Shown here in pieces: positions 37,757-43,018 of a stretch of 64,000 nt of DNA (its first letter is position 1; each line of letters starts with the position of its first letter). Under the pieces are notes generated by a model, which saw only the letters and a list, made by a program, of their open reading frames with translations, had not been told where the DNA came from and did not search any database. Source of the stretch: Rhizobium etli CFN 42 (lineage in GTDB: Bacteria > Pseudomonadota > Alphaproteobacteria > Rhizobiales > Rhizobiaceae); contig NC_007765.1 in NCBI RefSeq assembly GCF_000092045.1, positions 441,335 to 505,334 of the forward strand, read 5' to 3'. Position numbers and translations under genes: made by a program.

Positions 37757-38161
37757 ATGAAAGAAGAACCGCACGCAGTAGATGTTCATGTCGGAAAGAC
37801 GATCCGCATACAGCGTCTGCTGCGCAAAGTTTCGCAGACGGAATTGGGCGATCGTGTCGGCGTAACGTTTCAGCAGATCCAGAAATACGAAAAAGGCTCC
37901 AACCGCGTTTCAGCCAGCATGCTGGTTGAAATCGCCGGCGCGCTGAATGTGGACGTCAGGACGTTCTTTGACGACCTGTCGACCCCTGTAACGGCTAACG
38001 ACAACCCGGCTCCCAGCGAGGAATTCGTTATTTCGCGCGAGGGTGTCCTTCTGAATGCGGCGTTCTTCTCGATCAAAAACGAAGCTCTTCGCAAGAAGAT
38101 CCTGAAGCTTGTTCAGGCAATCGCCCACACCGAACAGGTCGACGGTGAAGCGGCCGAATAG
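37757..38161 (+). CDS. PraR/PhrR-like XRE-family regulator
   Basis: A 134-residue DNA-binding protein. The N-terminal half is a Cro/C1 helix-turn-helix (VGKTIRIQRLLRKVSQTEL, then VGVTFQQIQKYEKGSNRVSA) very close in pattern to rhizobial PraR, which represses biofilm and quorum-sensing genes. The C-terminal half is short and lacks a ligand domain. ATG 37757 follows AGGAGGG. This looks like a replicon-borne paralogue; targets are unknown, though the RiPP operon lies next to it, convergently. Confidence 0.88.
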   Translation: MKEEPHAVDVHVGKTIRIQRLLRKVSQTELGDRVGVTFQQIQKYEKGSNRVSASMLVEIAGALNVDVRTFFDDLSTPVTANDNPAPSEEFVISREGVLLNAAFFSIKNEALRKKILKLVQAIAHTEQVDGEAAE

Positions 38162-38202: not shown

Positions 38203-38469
38203 TCAATGGCGATCGATCAGGATCAGATTCTCGCTAGCGTCCTTCATTGCGATCTTGGCCTTGCTGCCGAGCAGTTTCTCGAGGTTGACGTCAAGTTCCC
38301 TGTCCGGATCTATGCCGTCCCAATCGATGACGACCTGCAGCAGCGCCATGTTCGTCAGGTGCATCAGATTACGCAGCTGAAGCTTTTCAGCCTCCTCCTT
38401 GGCTGCCGACAGCAGCCGGAAGATCCTTGCGTATTCACTGCCTGTACCTTCGTTATGTTGTTCAAACAT
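38203..38469 (-). CDS. conserved-looking hypothetical protein, 88 residues
   Basis: A short soluble protein (MFEQHNEGTGSEYARIF at the start), mostly alpha-helical and rich in charged residues, without a domain I recognise. Its ATG is preceded by AAGGGGCGGGAC, a good ribosome binding site. It lies 64 bases downstream of tfuA on the same strand with no clear terminator between, so it may be the last gene of the RiPP operon. Confidence 0.65.
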   Translation of the reverse strand: MFEQHNEGTGSEYARIFRLLSAAKEEAEKLQLRNLMHLTNMALLQVVIDWDGIDPDRELDVNLEKLLGSKAKIAMKDASENLILIDRH

Positions 38470-38533
38470 TGTCCCGCCCCTTTGGCCGTGAAGCCTCAGA
38501 TTCCATCACCACTGCATCATTTCGCCGAGACCG

Positions 38534-39277
38534 TTATTCTAGCGTTACAGGAGTCACATTGCGTGTGACTTCCGCGTGCAAAAGCTCCCAATGCGAGGTT
38601 GCGGCAAAGCGCCAGTCACGATTGACGGGTGCGAATTCGTCGCGATGCAGCCACTCCAGCACCAGCCGCGCGTCGTTGCGTTTGCGTTCGACGCGGTTCT
38701 TGCGGAGAGCGGCTAGGAGGTGGTCGCGGCGCGGCTTGCGGAAATGGCACTCGTCGATCACCCTCGCATAGGTGCGCTCGGAAAAATGCAGGAAGCGACC
38801 GGAGAGCAGCAGTTTCTTGCGCTCACCCGTCGAAATCTCGCCGCAGGCATAAAGCGCATCGATCGTCGGTTCGAAATCGACCCAGGGTACGGAGAGCGGC
38901 AGCCAGCCAAGCGCCTGCGGCGCATGTACCAGCGCGACGGCCTCGTCGTCGAGCAGCCTCCCGGACTCGTAATCTTCGAAGATCGAGCCGAGGCCGACCA
39001 TCCCGAACGGAGCGCATTCCGCAGCCCGCAATGCGCCCATGCTAGCGCCGCCGGCTACGGCGACATCATGTTCAAGCGCGTAGAGAATTTCCTTGTGCCA
39101 GACCGAAGGCAGCTCGCCGAAATAGCCGTCGACGAGGCCGATCGCGGTGGCGCCATCCTCCACCGCCTTCAGGATGTCGCCGCGGGCGGCGGGCGGGCGG
39201 AAATCGATGCAAGGAGAGATATTTCTCGCTGCGGCAAGGCCGCTACCAAGGCTCGGACCGACGAACAGAACCTTCAT
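38534..39277 (-). CDS. TfuA domain protein
   Basis: A 247-residue TfuA-like protein, beginning MKVLFVGPSLG and with the conserved DILKAVEDGATAIGLVDGYFG and VAVAGGASMGALRAAECAPFG segments. TfuA proteins act with YcaO enzymes; in archaeal McrA and in thioviridamide-type pathways the pair puts thioamides into a peptide backbone, TfuA probably delivering sulfur. The start codon overlaps the ycaO stop (ATGA), showing tight coupling. Confidence 0.9.
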   Translation of the reverse strand: MKVLFVGPSLGSGLAAARNISPCIDFRPPAARGDILKAVEDGATAIGLVDGYFGELPSVWHKEILYALEHDVAVAGGASMGALRAAECAPFGMVGLGSIFEDYESGRLLDDEAVALVHAPQALGWLPLSVPWVDFEPTIDALYACGEISTGERKKLLLSGRFLHFSERTYARVIDECHFRKPRRDHLLAALRKNRVERKRNDARLVLEWLHRDEFAPVNRDWRFAATSHWELLHAEVTRNVTPVTLE

Positions 39278-40542
39278 GATTGGGCTCCTCTCATGGTGTT
39301 GACGGCGCGCAGGCCGAGCTGGATGTACTGACCTGATATATCGACCTCCAGGCCCGGCACGATCACCCTGACGACTGAGACCGGCAAAGCCGGATGGGCA
39401 AAGGGCACGGCGACGATCTGCCCGATCCCGCTCGCCACCAGCCGGTCGGCTATGTTGTGGATGGTCTCCTGGATCGTCGCGGCACGGCGATGGCGGCTCT
39501 GAAAGGCGCGCATCCGGCCGTCGCTCTCGCAGAGTTCGACCAGCTGCTGCATCGCCGCACTCTTGTCGAGCCGCTGATAGATGCGCGGCGAGAAATCGTC
39601 GCGGCTGCCGGCGATCGCCGTCAGCCGGCTCTGCGCCGCCTCGGTGATGGCGCGCAATGCGGCGCGCACGGGATCGCGATGGCAGCCGCAGCCGCCGCAG
39701 ACATGCGACCAGCGCGCGTCGACGCGGTCGGAAAGATTGCCCGGCATGATGACGGCCAGAAAAGCCGGAACGCCGACATCGGTGGTCATGTCGATGAGCA
39801 GCAGCCGCATGCCGGCGCGGGTGATCCGGTCGGTCATGACGTCGATGACCGCATCGTCGAAGGAGGCGGGGTCGATGCGGCTCTCCTGGAGGCGCTGCGG
39901 TGATTTCAGCTGGGTCAGAGCCCAGGCGTCGCGCTCGACCAGCTCGCAAAGGCCGTGCAGAACCGCTTCGGACGGCGTATTGCCGGAGGCAAGCCCATCG
40001 CTCGACTGCTCGAAGCCCGGCGGCCGCTCGCCGCGATGGTCGAGGCCGACGAGCCACCAGGGGACAAAGACGCTGCTGCCGGACAGAATGTCGAGGCCAG
40101 AGCACCAAGGGATGGGGTCACCGCCGATGTCATCGGGTGCGCATCGTGCGACATTGTCGAGATCGATCATGGCGGCGCGTTCCGCCCGCATGCTCTCCAC
40201 CGTCGCCTTCGTCAGGTCGGCAGGCGCAATTTCCGCGATTCGCGTCTCGATCGCCTCCATGGCGGCCGAGGCCATGGCGGCATCATTGTCGATGCCTTTG
40301 CCCTGGAAGACCGAAAGCGTGTGGCTGTTCGGCCTCGTCGCAAAGGCGACTGGGATGTTCAGAACGTCGAGGGCGGTCAGCAGGCCGACGCGCGTGATGC
40401 CGAATCCGCGCAGATGCGGCCGGATGGCTGCAAGTGTCTGCGCCGGCATGACTGCGCGGTCGTGATATTCGCTGACGCCGGCGGATGATCGTTTGAGATC
40501 AGCGGCTAGCGTTTCAAGGTCGGCAAAGGCGGACATTCCCAT
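39274..40542 (-). CDS. YcaO-domain protein (RiPP modification)
   Basis: A 422-residue YcaO enzyme, which activates peptide backbone amides with ATP. Typical segments are NSHTLSVFQGKGIDNDAAMASAAMEAIE (in two parts: sugar-phosphate-like loop and helix), SGNTPSEAVLHGLCELVERDAW with the ATP/Mg-binding Glu residues, and VDARWSHVCGGCGCHRDP. The proline-rich PxPxP C-terminus of azoline-forming YcaOs is absent, and a TfuA partner is encoded next, which favours thioamidation. It begins 7 bases after the candidate precursor gene. Confidence 0.9.
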   Translation of the reverse strand: MGMSAFADLETLAADLKRSSAGVSEYHDRAVMPAQTLAAIRPHLRGFGITRVGLLTALDVLNIPVAFATRPNSHTLSVFQGKGIDNDAAMASAAMEAIETRIAEIAPADLTKATVESMRAERAAMIDLDNVARCAPDDIGGDPIPWCSGLDILSGSSVFVPWWLVGLDHRGERPPGFEQSSDGLASGNTPSEAVLHGLCELVERDAWALTQLKSPQRLQESRIDPASFDDAVIDVMTDRITRAGMRLLLIDMTTDVGVPAFLAVIMPGNLSDRVDARWSHVCGGCGCHRDPVRAALRAITEAAQSRLTAIAGSRDDFSPRIYQRLDKSAAMQQLVELCESDGRMRAFQSRHRRAATIQETIHNIADRLVASGIGQIVAVPFAHPALPVSVVRVIVPGLEVDISGQYIQLGLRAVNTMRGAQS

Positions 40543-40549
40543 CTCGTCC

Positions 40550-40693
40550 TTAGCGGAACTTCAGGGCATGAGTCAGGTTTTCGAGGGCGTTCGCATTGAT
40601 GGTGAGTTCGTCCTGCTTCATCGCAGCCTTGGCTGCAGCCGAGAAACGCGGCTGGGACGGAATTGCGGCATTGGGTTCAACACTGGTTTTCAT
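40550..40693 (-). CDS. candidate RiPP precursor peptide, 47 residues
   Basis: A short gene directly upstream of ycaO (7-base gap), with ribosome binding site GGAGAT 6 bases before its ATG. The peptide starts MKTSVEPNAAIPSQPRF, has an Ala/Lys-rich middle (SAAAKAAMKQ) and ends ALENLTHALKFR. It has no Cys, and few Ser or Thr in the C-terminal part, so azole formation is improbable while backbone thioamidation would not need them. Size, position and leader-like composition suit a precursor; no family match is claimed. Confidence 0.72.
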   Translation of the reverse strand: MKTSVEPNAAIPSQPRFSAAAKAAMKQDELTINANALENLTHALKFR

Positions 40694-40755
40694 TGTCCAT
40701 CTCCAATGGGATAGGCAGCGGGCTGCCGTTAACCATTGAAGAGGAACACTGCCGG

Positions 40756-40783
40756 CGTCATTTAAGCGTTACAGGCTTCGTTA
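40756..40783 (-). promoter_or_regulatory. three direct repeats upstream of the precursor gene
   Basis: On the minus strand TAACG, TAACG and TGACG lie at 40779-40783, 40767-40771 and 40756-40760, 11-12 bases apart. SARP/BTAD regulators commonly bind short direct repeats at about one helical turn, and such a regulator is encoded just upstream. Confidence 0.4.
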
Positions 40784-40796
40784 AAAGGCCGCATAA

Positions 40797-42752
40797 TCAG
40801 GGAAGTCCTGCCAGGTGCAGGCCATGAATCAGCGTTTCCGTGTAGCGAGGATCGCGATCGGGAACGAAATGGCGGATGTCCTCGCTGCGGAAATCCGGAA
40901 AATTATCCAGAACGACGCTCGCATAACCGCCAGCCTTTTTCATATCCCCCGCCATGGCGTGGGCGGCTGCGAGTAACCGGGCGGTCGCCTGCTTGGACTT
41001 CACCGGTTCAAGCGCCTCGATCGCCTGTTGGTATTCTCCGCGATCGAAGTGAATCCCGCCACGATTCCAGTAGTAATAATCGGGCGGCAGCGGATTGAGC
41101 TTGAAGGCCGCGTTGTTCAGGTCCAGCGCTTTGTCAAAGTCGCCGTAGTGGCACAGCGCATCGGCGTAGTCGGCGAGGATGTCGGCATCGTTGGGATTGA
41201 GATCCTGCGCCTGCTGGAAATAGTCCAGGCTTTCGTCGAAACGGCGGCGGTACAGCGCCACGAAACCCAACTCGCGGTAGGCCCTGCCGCTGTTCGGATC
41301 GGACTGCTGCGCCTGCCGGGCGGCGCCATTCGCCTCGTCGAGCAGTTCGGTGTCCTGCATGCCGCGGATCAGCCATTCCATGCCGAGCGCACGCGACACG
41401 CCGGCGTGGGCGGCCGAAAAATTCTCGTAACGATTGAGCGAGGATTTGAACCATTTGCGCGCCTGACGCAGATGCTGCAGGTCGGTCTGGGCGATCAGCC
41501 GCTTGCCTTCCAGATAGAGACGGTAGGCGGATGGCGGCGCATCGCCGATCGGCATCGCCAGCTCGTGGCGTTCGACGGTGTCGGCGAGCGAGGAGACGAT
41601 GCGCCGTGTCAGATGCGCGAAGGATTCACTGATCTTCTGCATGACCAGCGGCAATTCCAGAGCCCAGATCACCTCCGATGTCGTCGTCCGCGTCAGACGG
41701 CAGGTCGCATAGACATCCTCGTCGCGGCCCTGGATGGTGACGTAAACCGCATAGTCGAAGCTGAGGTCGAGCGGGCGGGGCACGGCACGGGCCGGATCGA
41801 CCGAACGGCTGAGGATTTCGAGGCTCGTATGGGCTGCGATCACCCTGAAGCCGCGCTGCTGGCTGAGGCCGATGGTGACGTCCTCAAGCAAGGCCCTGCC
41901 GACGCGCTCCATCAGCGGATCGGTGAAAATGCTTTCCGGCGGCAGGATGATGATCCGCGGCTGGCCGAGCAGATCGGCGAAGCCACTCGGCCCAGCCGAT
42001 GGACGTTCGGCCGCAGCGGGCTGAGCTGCCGGGATCAGGCCGAGTTCGCGGGCGAGCGCGGTGGTGCTTTCCTCCGGCTCGGCGTCGAACTCGTCCTTCA
42101 GCTGGCTTTTGCACTTCAGATAAGTTTGGCGCGCCGCGGCCGGATCGTTCATCCTGACATAAGTGCGCATCAGGGCCCGATAGGCCGTCTCGCTGGCGGG
42201 GTCGAGCTCCAGCAGGCGACGGGCAAAGGCCACCTGCTCTTCATCCGATCTGTCTTCAGCGGTTTCCACCAGCCGGGTCAGATGGGCGGCGCGCAATTCG
42301 TCGACGCGCTGGCGCTCGAAAGTCAGCCAGTCCTCGGCGCCCTGCGTCGGCGACTTGGCGCTTTCGAGCAATTCGCCATTGAGAATGTCGCCGTCTTCGG
42401 CTGCGAGCGGCCCTTTCTGCTTCAGCATATGGACGTCGACTTCCCAGCCGTCGGCAAGCCCGATATGGGTTCGGGTCGCTTTCAGCAGCGGCGGCAGGGC
42501 GGCGGGAATGCTTTGCTCGATGCGCGCCAGCAGCTGGCGCAGACTGCCTGCGCGTTTTTCCGGCGCTTCCGATTGCCAGAGCTGCCGTCTGATGGTTTCG
42601 CGGTCGAGTTCGAGATTGGCTTCGGCGGCGAGCATGGCGAAGAGAAAATAAGACTTCTCCGGCAAGGGGAGTTCCCTCCCCGCTGCCAGCAATCGCGGTC
42701 TTCCGAGCAGGCAGAGCCTGTTCGTCGACATCTGTCCGGATGTCCGTTGCAT
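40797..42752 (-). CDS. BTAD-domain (SARP-like) regulator with TPR repeats
   Basis: A large regulator of about 651 residues. The N-terminal region (LCLLGRPRLL, ELPLPEKSYFLFAMLA) is an OmpR-like winged helix, followed by a bacterial transcriptional activation domain (about 110-240: ETAYRALMRTYVRMNDPAAA). The middle resembles the beta-domain seen in adenylate cyclase-like TPR activators (RIIILPPESIFTDPL), and the C-terminal third has several TPR units (FSAAHAGVSRALG, FDESLDYFQQAQDLNPNDAD). It lies directly upstream of the precursor-ycaO-tfuA genes on the same strand, suggesting it activates them. The start is uncertain: 42752, 42731 or a GTG at 42791. Confidence 0.82.
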   Translation of the reverse strand: MQRTSGQMSTNRLCLLGRPRLLAAGRELPLPEKSYFLFAMLAAEANLELDRETIRRQLWQSEAPEKRAGSLRQLLARIEQSIPAALPPLLKATRTHIGLADGWEVDVHMLKQKGPLAAEDGDILNGELLESAKSPTQGAEDWLTFERQRVDELRAAHLTRLVETAEDRSDEEQVAFARRLLELDPASETAYRALMRTYVRMNDPAAARQTYLKCKSQLKDEFDAEPEESTTALARELGLIPAAQPAAAERPSAGPSGFADLLGQPRIIILPPESIFTDPLMERVGRALLEDVTIGLSQQRGFRVIAAHTSLEILSRSVDPARAVPRPLDLSFDYAVYVTIQGRDEDVYATCRLTRTTTSEVIWALELPLVMQKISESFAHLTRRIVSSLADTVERHELAMPIGDAPPSAYRLYLEGKRLIAQTDLQHLRQARKWFKSSLNRYENFSAAHAGVSRALGMEWLIRGMQDTELLDEANGAARQAQQSDPNSGRAYRELGFVALYRRRFDESLDYFQQAQDLNPNDADILADYADALCHYGDFDKALDLNNAAFKLNPLPPDYYYWNRGGIHFDRGEYQQAIEALEPVKSKQATARLLAAAHAMAGDMKKAGGYASVVLDNFPDFRSEDIRHFVPDRDPRYTETLIHGLHLAGLP

Positions 42753-43018
42753 CCCGCTTCTCACCCCTGAAGACCAGACGCGCATACGCACCGGTCAGGA
42801 ACATGTTAGAGCGATAATAGGCCCGCGCATAGCGCAAAAAGAAGTTTTTACACCGAATATTTGCATTTTCTCACATAAGCGGCCGGAAATGCTTGCCAAC
42901 ACTTTGCCCCCGACGTGATTTTGATCCGTTATTCCAGCCGTTGCGGCCTCTACAGCCGCAACCAACAGCGACCGATCCTGATCGATCACAGCATCGGCGC
43001 GATCTATTTGGCGCTGGT

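Follow-up and report, generated by a model that had tools for sequence, protein, structure and literature searches.

A six-gene YcaO-TfuA peptide unit of Rhizobium: a proposed thioamide-type regulatory module with a layout resembling the Cin quorum-sensing locus

Why would rhizobia maintain, beside a pair of enzymes of the thioamide-forming kind, a short peptide gene and a set of regulators? TfuA clusters are already known in Rhizobium from genome mining: more than 500 have been counted (PMC8120280, in part), and thioamitide-related clusters are conserved on plasmids of the genus, where PMC10434180 reports no known role for them and raises the question of why the genus has kept them. The original prediction presented the locus as an undescribed RiPP locus, which, in view of these reports, does not hold for the class; the 47-aa peptide and its regulatory wiring did not appear in the literature we searched. 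The locus lies in a 64,000-nt stretch of Rhizobium etli CFN 42 contig NC_007765.1 (the window), whose positions are used as coordinates throughout. We give about even odds that it represents a self-contained peptide regulatory module, its peptide made by thioamide-forming enzymes, and built like the Cin quorum-sensing locus.

Extent of the unit and its precursor

The BTAD regulator, peptide, ycaO, tfuA and 88-aa genes were all found on the minus strand, with an XRE gene converging on them from the far end:

40797..42752, minus: BTAD (SARP-type) and TPR transcription regulator, 651 aa from the ATG at 42752; frame open from a GTG at 42791
40756..40773, minus: 11-bp-period direct repeat TGTAACGCTTAAATGACG, putative BTAD-regulator site ahead of the peptide
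40550..40693, minus: gene for the 47-aa precursor peptide MKTSVEPNAAIPSQPRFSAAAKAAMKQDELTINANALENLTHALKFR, which lacks Cys; GGAG 7 nt upstream of the ATG
39274..40542, minus: ycaO, 422 aa (420 aa from the second ATG); PF02624, 225 bits
38534..39277, minus: tfuA, 247 aa; PF07812, 125 bits; PDB 6xp8, 100 bits
38532..38549, minus: second 11-bp-period direct repeat TGTAACGCTAGAATAACG, ahead of the 88-aa gene and overlapping the end of tfuA
38203..38469, minus: 88-aa all-helical protein, proposed CinS-like antirepressor
37757..38161, plus: PraR-family XRE repressor, 134 aa, convergent with the other five genes

Among 80 related loci retrieved via YcaO, the regulator, always as first gene, is followed by peptide, YcaO, TfuA and the 88-aa protein in the same order and on the same strand in 72, and all 72 of these five-gene loci hold the convergent XRE gene. 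The surrounding nadABC genes are shared by just 37 of the 72, which rules out a wider cluster including them; the XRE gene persists in every one. The modified-peptide module thus consists of six genes and is larger than first described; the 88-residue protein, suspected at first to be a fifth member, proved to be a constant one. No exporter, leader protease, importer or immunity gene was found within the six-gene unit, as had been noted for the exporter, protease and immunity gene. In a survey of neighbouring gene groups at 81 loci, based on greedy gene calls that missed some genes and restricted to the 45 largest groups, an ABC-transporter ATPase (by Pfam) was the only non-module group spanning clades A, B and C, and it occurred at 9/81 loci in varying places.

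The predicted Cys-free precursor of 47 codons with a good ribosome binding site is borne out by the GGAG motif, and the reported overlap between ycaO and tfuA amounts to 4 nt. The distance of 7 bases between the peptide stop and ycaO holds with the first ATG of ycaO, while with the second it becomes 13 nt, the spacing given by the annotation of R. johnstonii 3841; outside clade C it is mostly 5-15 nt. Four of the 6 clade C loci were folded, and three of them have a strong hairpin after the peptide stop. Of 148 genomes from the genus, 91 encode the peptide, each with a single strong match, and it matches 18 database proteins, that of the window included. A chance ORF was considered and ruled out by its retention in 72/80 loci, beside ycaO-tfuA as the original prediction would have it, and by purifying selection on its second half (dN/dS 0.08-0.11). 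The refuting condition set by the original prediction, a small ORF not kept in relatives, did not arise. The expected conserved C-terminal core is found in the form HA[LMV][KR][FY][RQ]: across genera, conservation is stronger in the C-terminal half than at the N-terminus, and the core is conserved rather than hypervariable; several rows of the peptide alignment have one codon too few or too many at an end.

A second precursor family accompanies related enzymes. In the YcaO tree, 74 rows of family I separate from 7 rows of family II (support 0.757), and all seven family II loci have an XRE gene and a homologous BTAD-type regulator alongside. Their precursors are unmatched by the peptide profile although the enzymes are related, and one of them (L091) bears a repeated C-terminal unit, a feature frequent in RiPP cores.

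Candidate control sites and the cinS slot

The first gene encodes a protein with a BTAD domain (PF03704, 49.9 bits against a cut-off of 22.1) and several TPR families, while the OmpR-type winged helix PF00486 reaches 13.7 bits against a cut-off of 26.2. The genome holds a second BTAD gene, and BTAD matches occur in 6 of 14 control genomes, E. coli and Synechococcus included, five of them above cut-off, so the idea that SARP-type regulators are unusual outside actinobacteria is not supported.

A direct repeat with an 11-bp period, of the form TNACG-N6-TNACG, precedes the peptide in 74/74 loci and the 88-aa gene in 67/73, the remaining six, all of clade C, carrying it between peptide and ycaO. 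In the window, two such sites were observed against 0.04 expected. Where the repeat overlaps the end of tfuA, the rare Val codon GTA is used in 59 of the 61 V-T pairs scored. SARP boxes consist of direct repeats with a spacing of 11 or 22 bp (PMC10936776, in part); the repeats at the locus match the arrangement bound by SARP activators and are presumably bound by the BTAD regulator. Exact consensus matches in the genome number three, two at the locus and a third which was dropped as a distant target because it sits inside an ORF; allowing up to one mismatch gives 13 matches, against 15 with the reversed pattern, which is background. None of 73 loci has such a repeat in the 300 nt upstream of the BTAD gene, leaving an autoregulatory loop of the putative receptor unsupported. 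An Aureimonas locus outside these 73 (L084) has a different 11-bp repeat upstream of its BTAD gene.

The 88-aa protein offers a candidate link to quorum sensing. Homologues are present in 98 of the 148 genomes, comprising the 91 with the peptide and seven without it. All eight strong homologues outside such loci in these genomes, one in each of the seven peptide-less genomes and a second copy in genome G324, stand directly behind relatives of cinR-cinI, the CinI relatives being 74-80% identical. The reference pair in R. johnstonii 3841 is taken to be cinR-cinI from its position. Of 12 weaker copies, the two examined are not beside cin genes. CinS acts as an antirepressor against PraR (PMC4149787, in part), and in Methylobacterium a 59-aa protein encoded behind the AHL synthase gene binds PraR (PMC10790750, in part). 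As for sequence, the 88-aa protein of the window shows no significant similarity to CinS: its score was reached by 639 of 2000 shuffles, hhalign gave a probability of 3.7% (P 0.012) and no profile match appeared at E 1. Neither Pfam nor NCBIfam gave a match to it above curated cut-offs, and PDB gave no match.

The XRE protein shares 44% identity (57/129) with PraR of R. johnstonii 3841, which was recognised there by its HTH at 19-72 and by the S-AdoMet synthetase and methyltransferase genes lying downstream of it. PraR-type XRE genes have several paralogues, two of them within the examined stretches of 3841, so which of them is the partner of the 88-aa protein is a guess.

The original prediction included neither the XRE gene nor the direct-repeat sites, nor the connection to Cin and PraR. 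Its interpretation is supported for the precursor, the core and the fifth gene, and not supported for the undescribed class and the rarity of SARP-type regulators.

Proposed mechanism, its rivals and the modification

According to the mechanism that we propose, YcaO and TfuA would use the sulfur carrier ThiS to install a thioamide in the C-terminal core NALENLTHALKFR, and the finished peptide would be sensed by the TPR part of the BTAD regulator. Once activated, this regulator would bind the 11-bp-period repeats and raise the peptide, ycaO and tfuA and, separately, the 88-aa gene, whose product may free targets from the PraR-like repressor. Because of these proposed steps, the peptide enzymes would take the place of CinI, the AHL synthase, the BTAD-TPR protein that of CinR and the 88-aa protein that of CinS. 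Since the regulatory parts are of the rhizobial quorum-sensing kind, the peptide may be a signal and not an antibiotic. From sequence, we infer thioamidation, secretion and signalling of the peptide alike, and the most far-reaching reading, in which a YcaO-TfuA-altered ribosomal peptide serves as a Rhizobium quorum-sensing signal with the BTAD-TPR protein as receptor and an antirepressor of the CinS type as the route into the PraR network, is tentative, with a probability of roughly 0.38.

It seems unlikely that the product is instead a thioamidated antimicrobial peptide, acting as a narrow-spectrum bacteriocin whose cluster-situated regulators are of the ordinary kind. Antibiotic, antiproliferative or cytotoxic activity is described for thioamidated RiPPs (PMC8120280), rhizobia make trifolitoxin and phazolicin (PMC9670871) and SARPs activate antibiotic biosynthesis (PMC10936776). 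Such a role is, however, at odds with a unit devoid of immunity and export genes, whose clade-spanning ABC-ATPase group is so infrequent, with the stronger conservation of the C-terminal half across genera, with the single strong match in each of so many genomes and with regulatory parts of the quorum-sensing type.

The missing exporter and protease, together with the strict conservation of the core and a regulator adjacent in 72/80 loci, would also suit an intracellular modified peptide, either a cofactor or a non-exported ligand of the BTAD-TPR protein reporting metabolic state. We consider this rather improbable, as the unit has no cofactor-using enzyme and the occurrence of relatives of the 88-aa protein in the cinS slot argues for density-type wiring.

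YcaO and TfuA form an adjacent pair, the motif CGGCGCH is kept by YcaO in 71/80 loci, and by sequence the closest solved relatives of the pair are PDB 6pe3, 6ci7 and 6xp8. The nearest curated families are those of McrA thioamidation, TIGR03266 for YcaO and NF033432 for TfuA, both matched below cut-off. ThiS, a sulfur carrier, is encoded in the same genome; ThiS and TfuA have a role in thioamidation (PMC13063428, in part). The locus thus combines features of a thioamide-type RiPP cluster, namely adjacent ycaO-tfuA, a short precursor that is conserved and constrained in its C-terminal core, and the presence of ThiS, and the short peptide is probably altered by exchange of one oxygen for sulfur. 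An azoline, an amidine or another backbone change is improbable: a SagD-family model also matches YcaO (117 bits, below its cut-off) and no biochemical test of this YcaO clade is known to us, yet the TfuA partner is present, the window peptide has no Cys and the six proteins scanned include no E1- or ThiF-like partner, the mark of azoline (LAP) formation. That the enzymes modify a cellular protein, as for archaeal McrA, with the 47-aa product as an accessory or recognition peptide, would agree with those nearest curated models and with the second precursor family escaping the peptide profile, but is highly improbable, as no candidate protein is linked to the locus and the repeated unit of L091 resembles a RiPP core.

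Our analysis identifies the precursor, sets the limits of the unit at six genes, locates likely control sites and ties the unit to parts of the Cin/PraR type; that network governs attachment and nodulation competitiveness (PMC4149787, in part). If the quorum-sensing reading is true, it would, to our knowledge, represent a new class of signal for alphaproteobacteria and a new, regulatory role for any thioamidated peptide.

Comparison with known systems

Compared with SARP regulators such as AfsR (PMC10936776, in part), the regulator shares the BTAD domain, the C-terminal TPR and promoters whose direct repeats are spaced by 11 bp, but it is alphaproteobacterial and no nucleotide-binding NOD domain was detected in it. 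The YcaO/TfuA pair that thioamidates the McrA glycine is closest by sequence, yet the proteins of the locus fall below the family cut-offs, and here a short peptide gene adjoins ycaO-tfuA. In RRNPP peptide receptors, an XRE-type HTH is fused to a TPR domain, whereas at this locus the TPR is joined to BTAD and XRE is a separate protein. The trifolitoxin gene tfuA of strain T24 was reportedly described by Breil in 1996. In strain T24 the locus lies on pRA_T24_1 and has 99.3% identity to its counterpart in R. anhuiense CCBAU 23252, whose genome has three tfuA matches; the historical T24 tfuA name did not occur among the 120 of 3306 matches listed.

The TfuA-related, thioamitide-like RiPP clusters of Rhizobium likewise have adjacent ycaO-tfuA and lie in some cases on plasmids, and our locus very likely belongs among those counted (PMC8120280; PMC10434180, both in part). 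In the parts consulted, neither paper mentions the peptide, the repeats or any of the BTAD, 88-aa and XRE genes.

There is also a regulatory likeness to the R. leguminosarum Cin circuit, in which cinR-cinI-cinS act together with PraR (PMC4149787, in part). With it the locus shares an activator gene, a putative signal-making unit and a PraR-family repressor, its small protein belonging to a family that occupies the cinS slot but having no significant sequence similarity to CinS. In contrast to Cin, LuxI and LuxR are replaced by a peptide, its modifying enzymes and a BTAD-TPR regulator, with no AHL synthase or LuxR domain among the six proteins scanned, and the repressor gene adjoins the locus itself.

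Composition and spread of the module

The window occupies positions 441335-505334 of contig C6 (505,334 bases), one of the seven contigs of the genome. The five genes named in the original prediction, i.e. a regulator with a BTAD domain, a 47-residue peptide, YcaO, TfuA and an 88-residue protein (ORF88), were all recovered on the minus strand where it had placed them, with the domains expected. A scan of named genomes by YcaO alignment confirmed at least 293 relatives, from which a set of 80 loci was kept. The one-strand succession BTAD regulator, peptide, YcaO, TfuA and 88-residue protein was present in 72/80 loci, and all 72 also carried an XRE gene on the opposite strand, starting about 1.0-1.25 kb beyond the end of ycaO. 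Together, these loci establish the parts of the module and their arrangement. The wider surroundings vary, with at least two of the three nadABC genes next to the module in 37 of the 72. When neighbouring genes were clustered (greedy gene calls, 81 loci including the window), the sole non-module group spanning clades A, B and C among the 45 largest groups was an ABC-transporter ATPase (Pfam), found in 9/81 loci at no fixed position.

Eight loci depart from the five-gene order. In L084, from Aureimonas, the peptide fell under the cut-off of the first profile, yet it is visible by eye with its VHAMKFR end; L090 has no TfuA or BTAD match; L087-L089 and L091-L093 hold a different precursor, with tfuA placed upstream in L093. 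Among public plasmids, the window locus retrieved 113 records, every one from Rhizobium, the nearest named relatives being R. etli strains (99.4%). The R. anhuiense locus retrieved 121, of which three are from Sinorhizobium and 114 cover at least 80% of the query. The module locus is also present on plasmid pRA_T24_1 of the trifolitoxin producer R. anhuiense T24, where tfuA lies in a reading frame of 641 codons, stop to stop.

The peptide and its likely modification

Peptide sequences were distinct in 64 of 74 cases, with a variable N-terminal start, an invariant middle block R[FL]SxAAxA (H for R in L084) and an invariant end N[AG]xxx[LIV][TV]HA[LMV][KR][FY][RQ]. The dN/dS ratio before vs after the R[FL]S block was 0.485 vs 0.080 in group A1 (30 loci), 0.333 vs 0.106 in A2 (11 loci) and 0.34 vs 0.076 in B (23 loci), and over the last 13 codons it was 0.077, 0.052 and 0.029, respectively; values for YcaO, TfuA and ORF88 across groups ranged from 0.045 to 0.175. 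By eye, a GGAG-type ribosome site precedes the peptide ATG in the 72 five-gene loci. The peptide was found in 91/148 genomes of the genus (G418 having an additional weak hit) and in 7/397 of an order-wide sample, where the five strong matches belong to the same genus and the two weak ones lie within long frames. Searched with one sequence only, 297 genomes of the family gave eight matches in two genera. The main rival to the peptide circuit favoured here, namely that the peptide is an antimicrobial, is less likely, as its core is conserved, it is widespread, genomes carry it as a single strong copy, and the unit holds no immunity or export genes. In three clade C loci (L077, L079, L081) the stretch between the peptide stop and ycaO holds a strong hairpin and then a direct repeat; production of the precursor may there exceed that of the enzymes.

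The nearest NCBIfam models are the YcaO of McrA-glycine thioamidation (198.9 bits, below the cut-off of 365) and its TfuA partner (174.4 bits, below the cut-off of 235.2), and PDB relatives of the two proteins include MJ1094 (6pe3), 6ci7 and 6xp8. The genome encodes ThiS, and TfuA is described as a hydrolase handing on sulfide from a thiocarboxylated carrier (PMC13063428). Because of these relatives, ThiS and the sulfide role of TfuA, thioamidation of the peptide is likely. The class itself is already known, since TfuA clusters (PMC8120280) and thioamitide-related clusters (PMC10434180) have been reported from Rhizobium. A cysteine-rich motif occurs in the YcaO of 71/80 loci:

Window 39679-39699, minus strand: CGGCGCH motif in ycaO, with three cysteines where outgroup YcaO reads TxGxGAH or similar

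These cysteines could serve metal binding or a sulfur relay.

A second precursor family comprises seven loci (L011, L087-L089 and L091-L093), which come from contig C2 of the window's own genome, two other Rhizobium, Ensifer, Gellertiella and a MAG. They contain an XRE gene, a BTAD-type regulator homologous to that of the window (176-233 bits), YcaO, TfuA and a precursor that is about 70 residues long or longer and unlike the window peptide in sequence:

L091:2578-3003: second-family precursor, C-terminal unit repeated several times (GRMDEGPA...)

Since like regulators accompany another peptide, the pairing of peptide and regulator as a principle gains support from these sequences.

Direct repeats as predicted control sites

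The sequence TGTNACGCTNNAATRACG has two sites in the window, ahead of the peptide and ahead of ORF88, with 0.04 expected by chance when two mismatches are permitted. The pattern TNAC[GA]-N6-TNAC[GA] precedes the peptide in 74/74 loci (the 72, the window and L084) and ORF88 in 67/73. The stricter TNACG-N6-TVAC[GA] was found ahead of the peptide in 63/73 loci (vs 0.10 in shuffles) and of ORF88 in 67/73 (vs 0.20), and in the 300 nt ahead of the BTAD gene in 0/73. The six loci lacking the ORF88 repeat all belong to clade C, three being named Neorhizobium; there, ORF88 overlaps tfuA, and a repeat lies between peptide and ycaO in 6/6. The repeat ahead of ORF88 overlaps the end of tfuA, and the Val codon is GTA in 59/61 V-T pairs scored at it, whereas in seven nearby genes GTA makes up 3.8% of Val codons (n = 209), which argues for constraint acting on the DNA and not only on the TfuA protein.

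SARP activators, a class with a BTAD domain, target direct repeats spaced by 11 or 22 bp (PMC10936776). The simplest reading is therefore that the module's own BTAD regulator would bind these repeats. In the Aureimonas locus another 11-bp direct repeat, GGCGTCACAGAGGCGTCACA, precedes the BTAD gene, perhaps for autoregulation. Two more TGACG repeats of 11-bp period lie 228 bp apart on contig C2 (2103114 and 2103342) and are perhaps sites of another regulator.

ORF88, the XRE protein and the Cin/PraR system

The ORF88 profile matched 98/148 genomes of the genus; comparison of the two result lists gave the 91 with the peptide and seven without it. A luxR-luxI pair stands immediately before the homologue (102-113 bits) in all seven, and likewise before a second copy that G324 carries:

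L114-L117 and L139-L142: eight cin-like operons whose cinS slot holds an ORF88 homologue

Identity of these pairs to the one on the R. johnstonii 3841 chromosome is 73-79% for LuxR and 74-80% for LuxI (four of the LuxI and three of the LuxR proteins were checked with Pfam). The 5.06-Mb chromosome of 3841 gave only one synthase match, with a 67-residue ORF next after the pair. We take the 3841 pair to be cinR-cinI, its position fitting the gene number, and the homologues outside the module therefore appear to occupy the place of cinS. ORF88 had no significant similarity to the presumed CinS proteins (67 and 63 residues); both carry MAL in the same register where the alignment ends, which is suggestive only. 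The predicted ORF88 model is all-helical (helices 9-30, 33-51 and 61-81; mean pLDDT 73.9). Twelve weaker copies occur in the genus (63-70 bits), and each of the two examined lies some 2.4 kb from a PraR-like XRE gene, with no cin genes beside it. In L118 and L119, weaker copies lie within a few kb of a PraR-like XRE gene and of genes for a 183-residue and a 75-residue protein, the latter giving no Pfam match in L118.

In published accounts, praR is followed by genes for S-adenosylmethionine synthetase and a tRNA methyltransferase (PMC10790750), and the HTH of PraR spans residues 19-73 (PMC4149787). The 3841 gene was recognised as praR because it agrees on both points (PF02773 and PF02390 downstream; HTH at residues 19-72). 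The window XRE protein matches this PraR at 99 bits (57 of 129 residues identical), and a second XRE protein in the 3841 stretches examined gave 74 bits.

In the literature searched, which covered few subscription papers, we found no description of this peptide, of its repeats or of any connection between YcaO-TfuA and CinS/PraR. CinS, a small protein produced together with CinI, binds the repressor PraR and inactivates it (PMC4149787; PMC5977203), and in Methylobacterium a 59-residue protein encoded behind an AHL synthase gene binds PraR (PMC10790750). The best account of the module, at about even odds (probability near 0.5), is a peptide circuit with the same kind of layout as Cin/PraR, whose presumed steps would be thioamide formation in the peptide, export, peptide sensing, DNA binding and antirepression.
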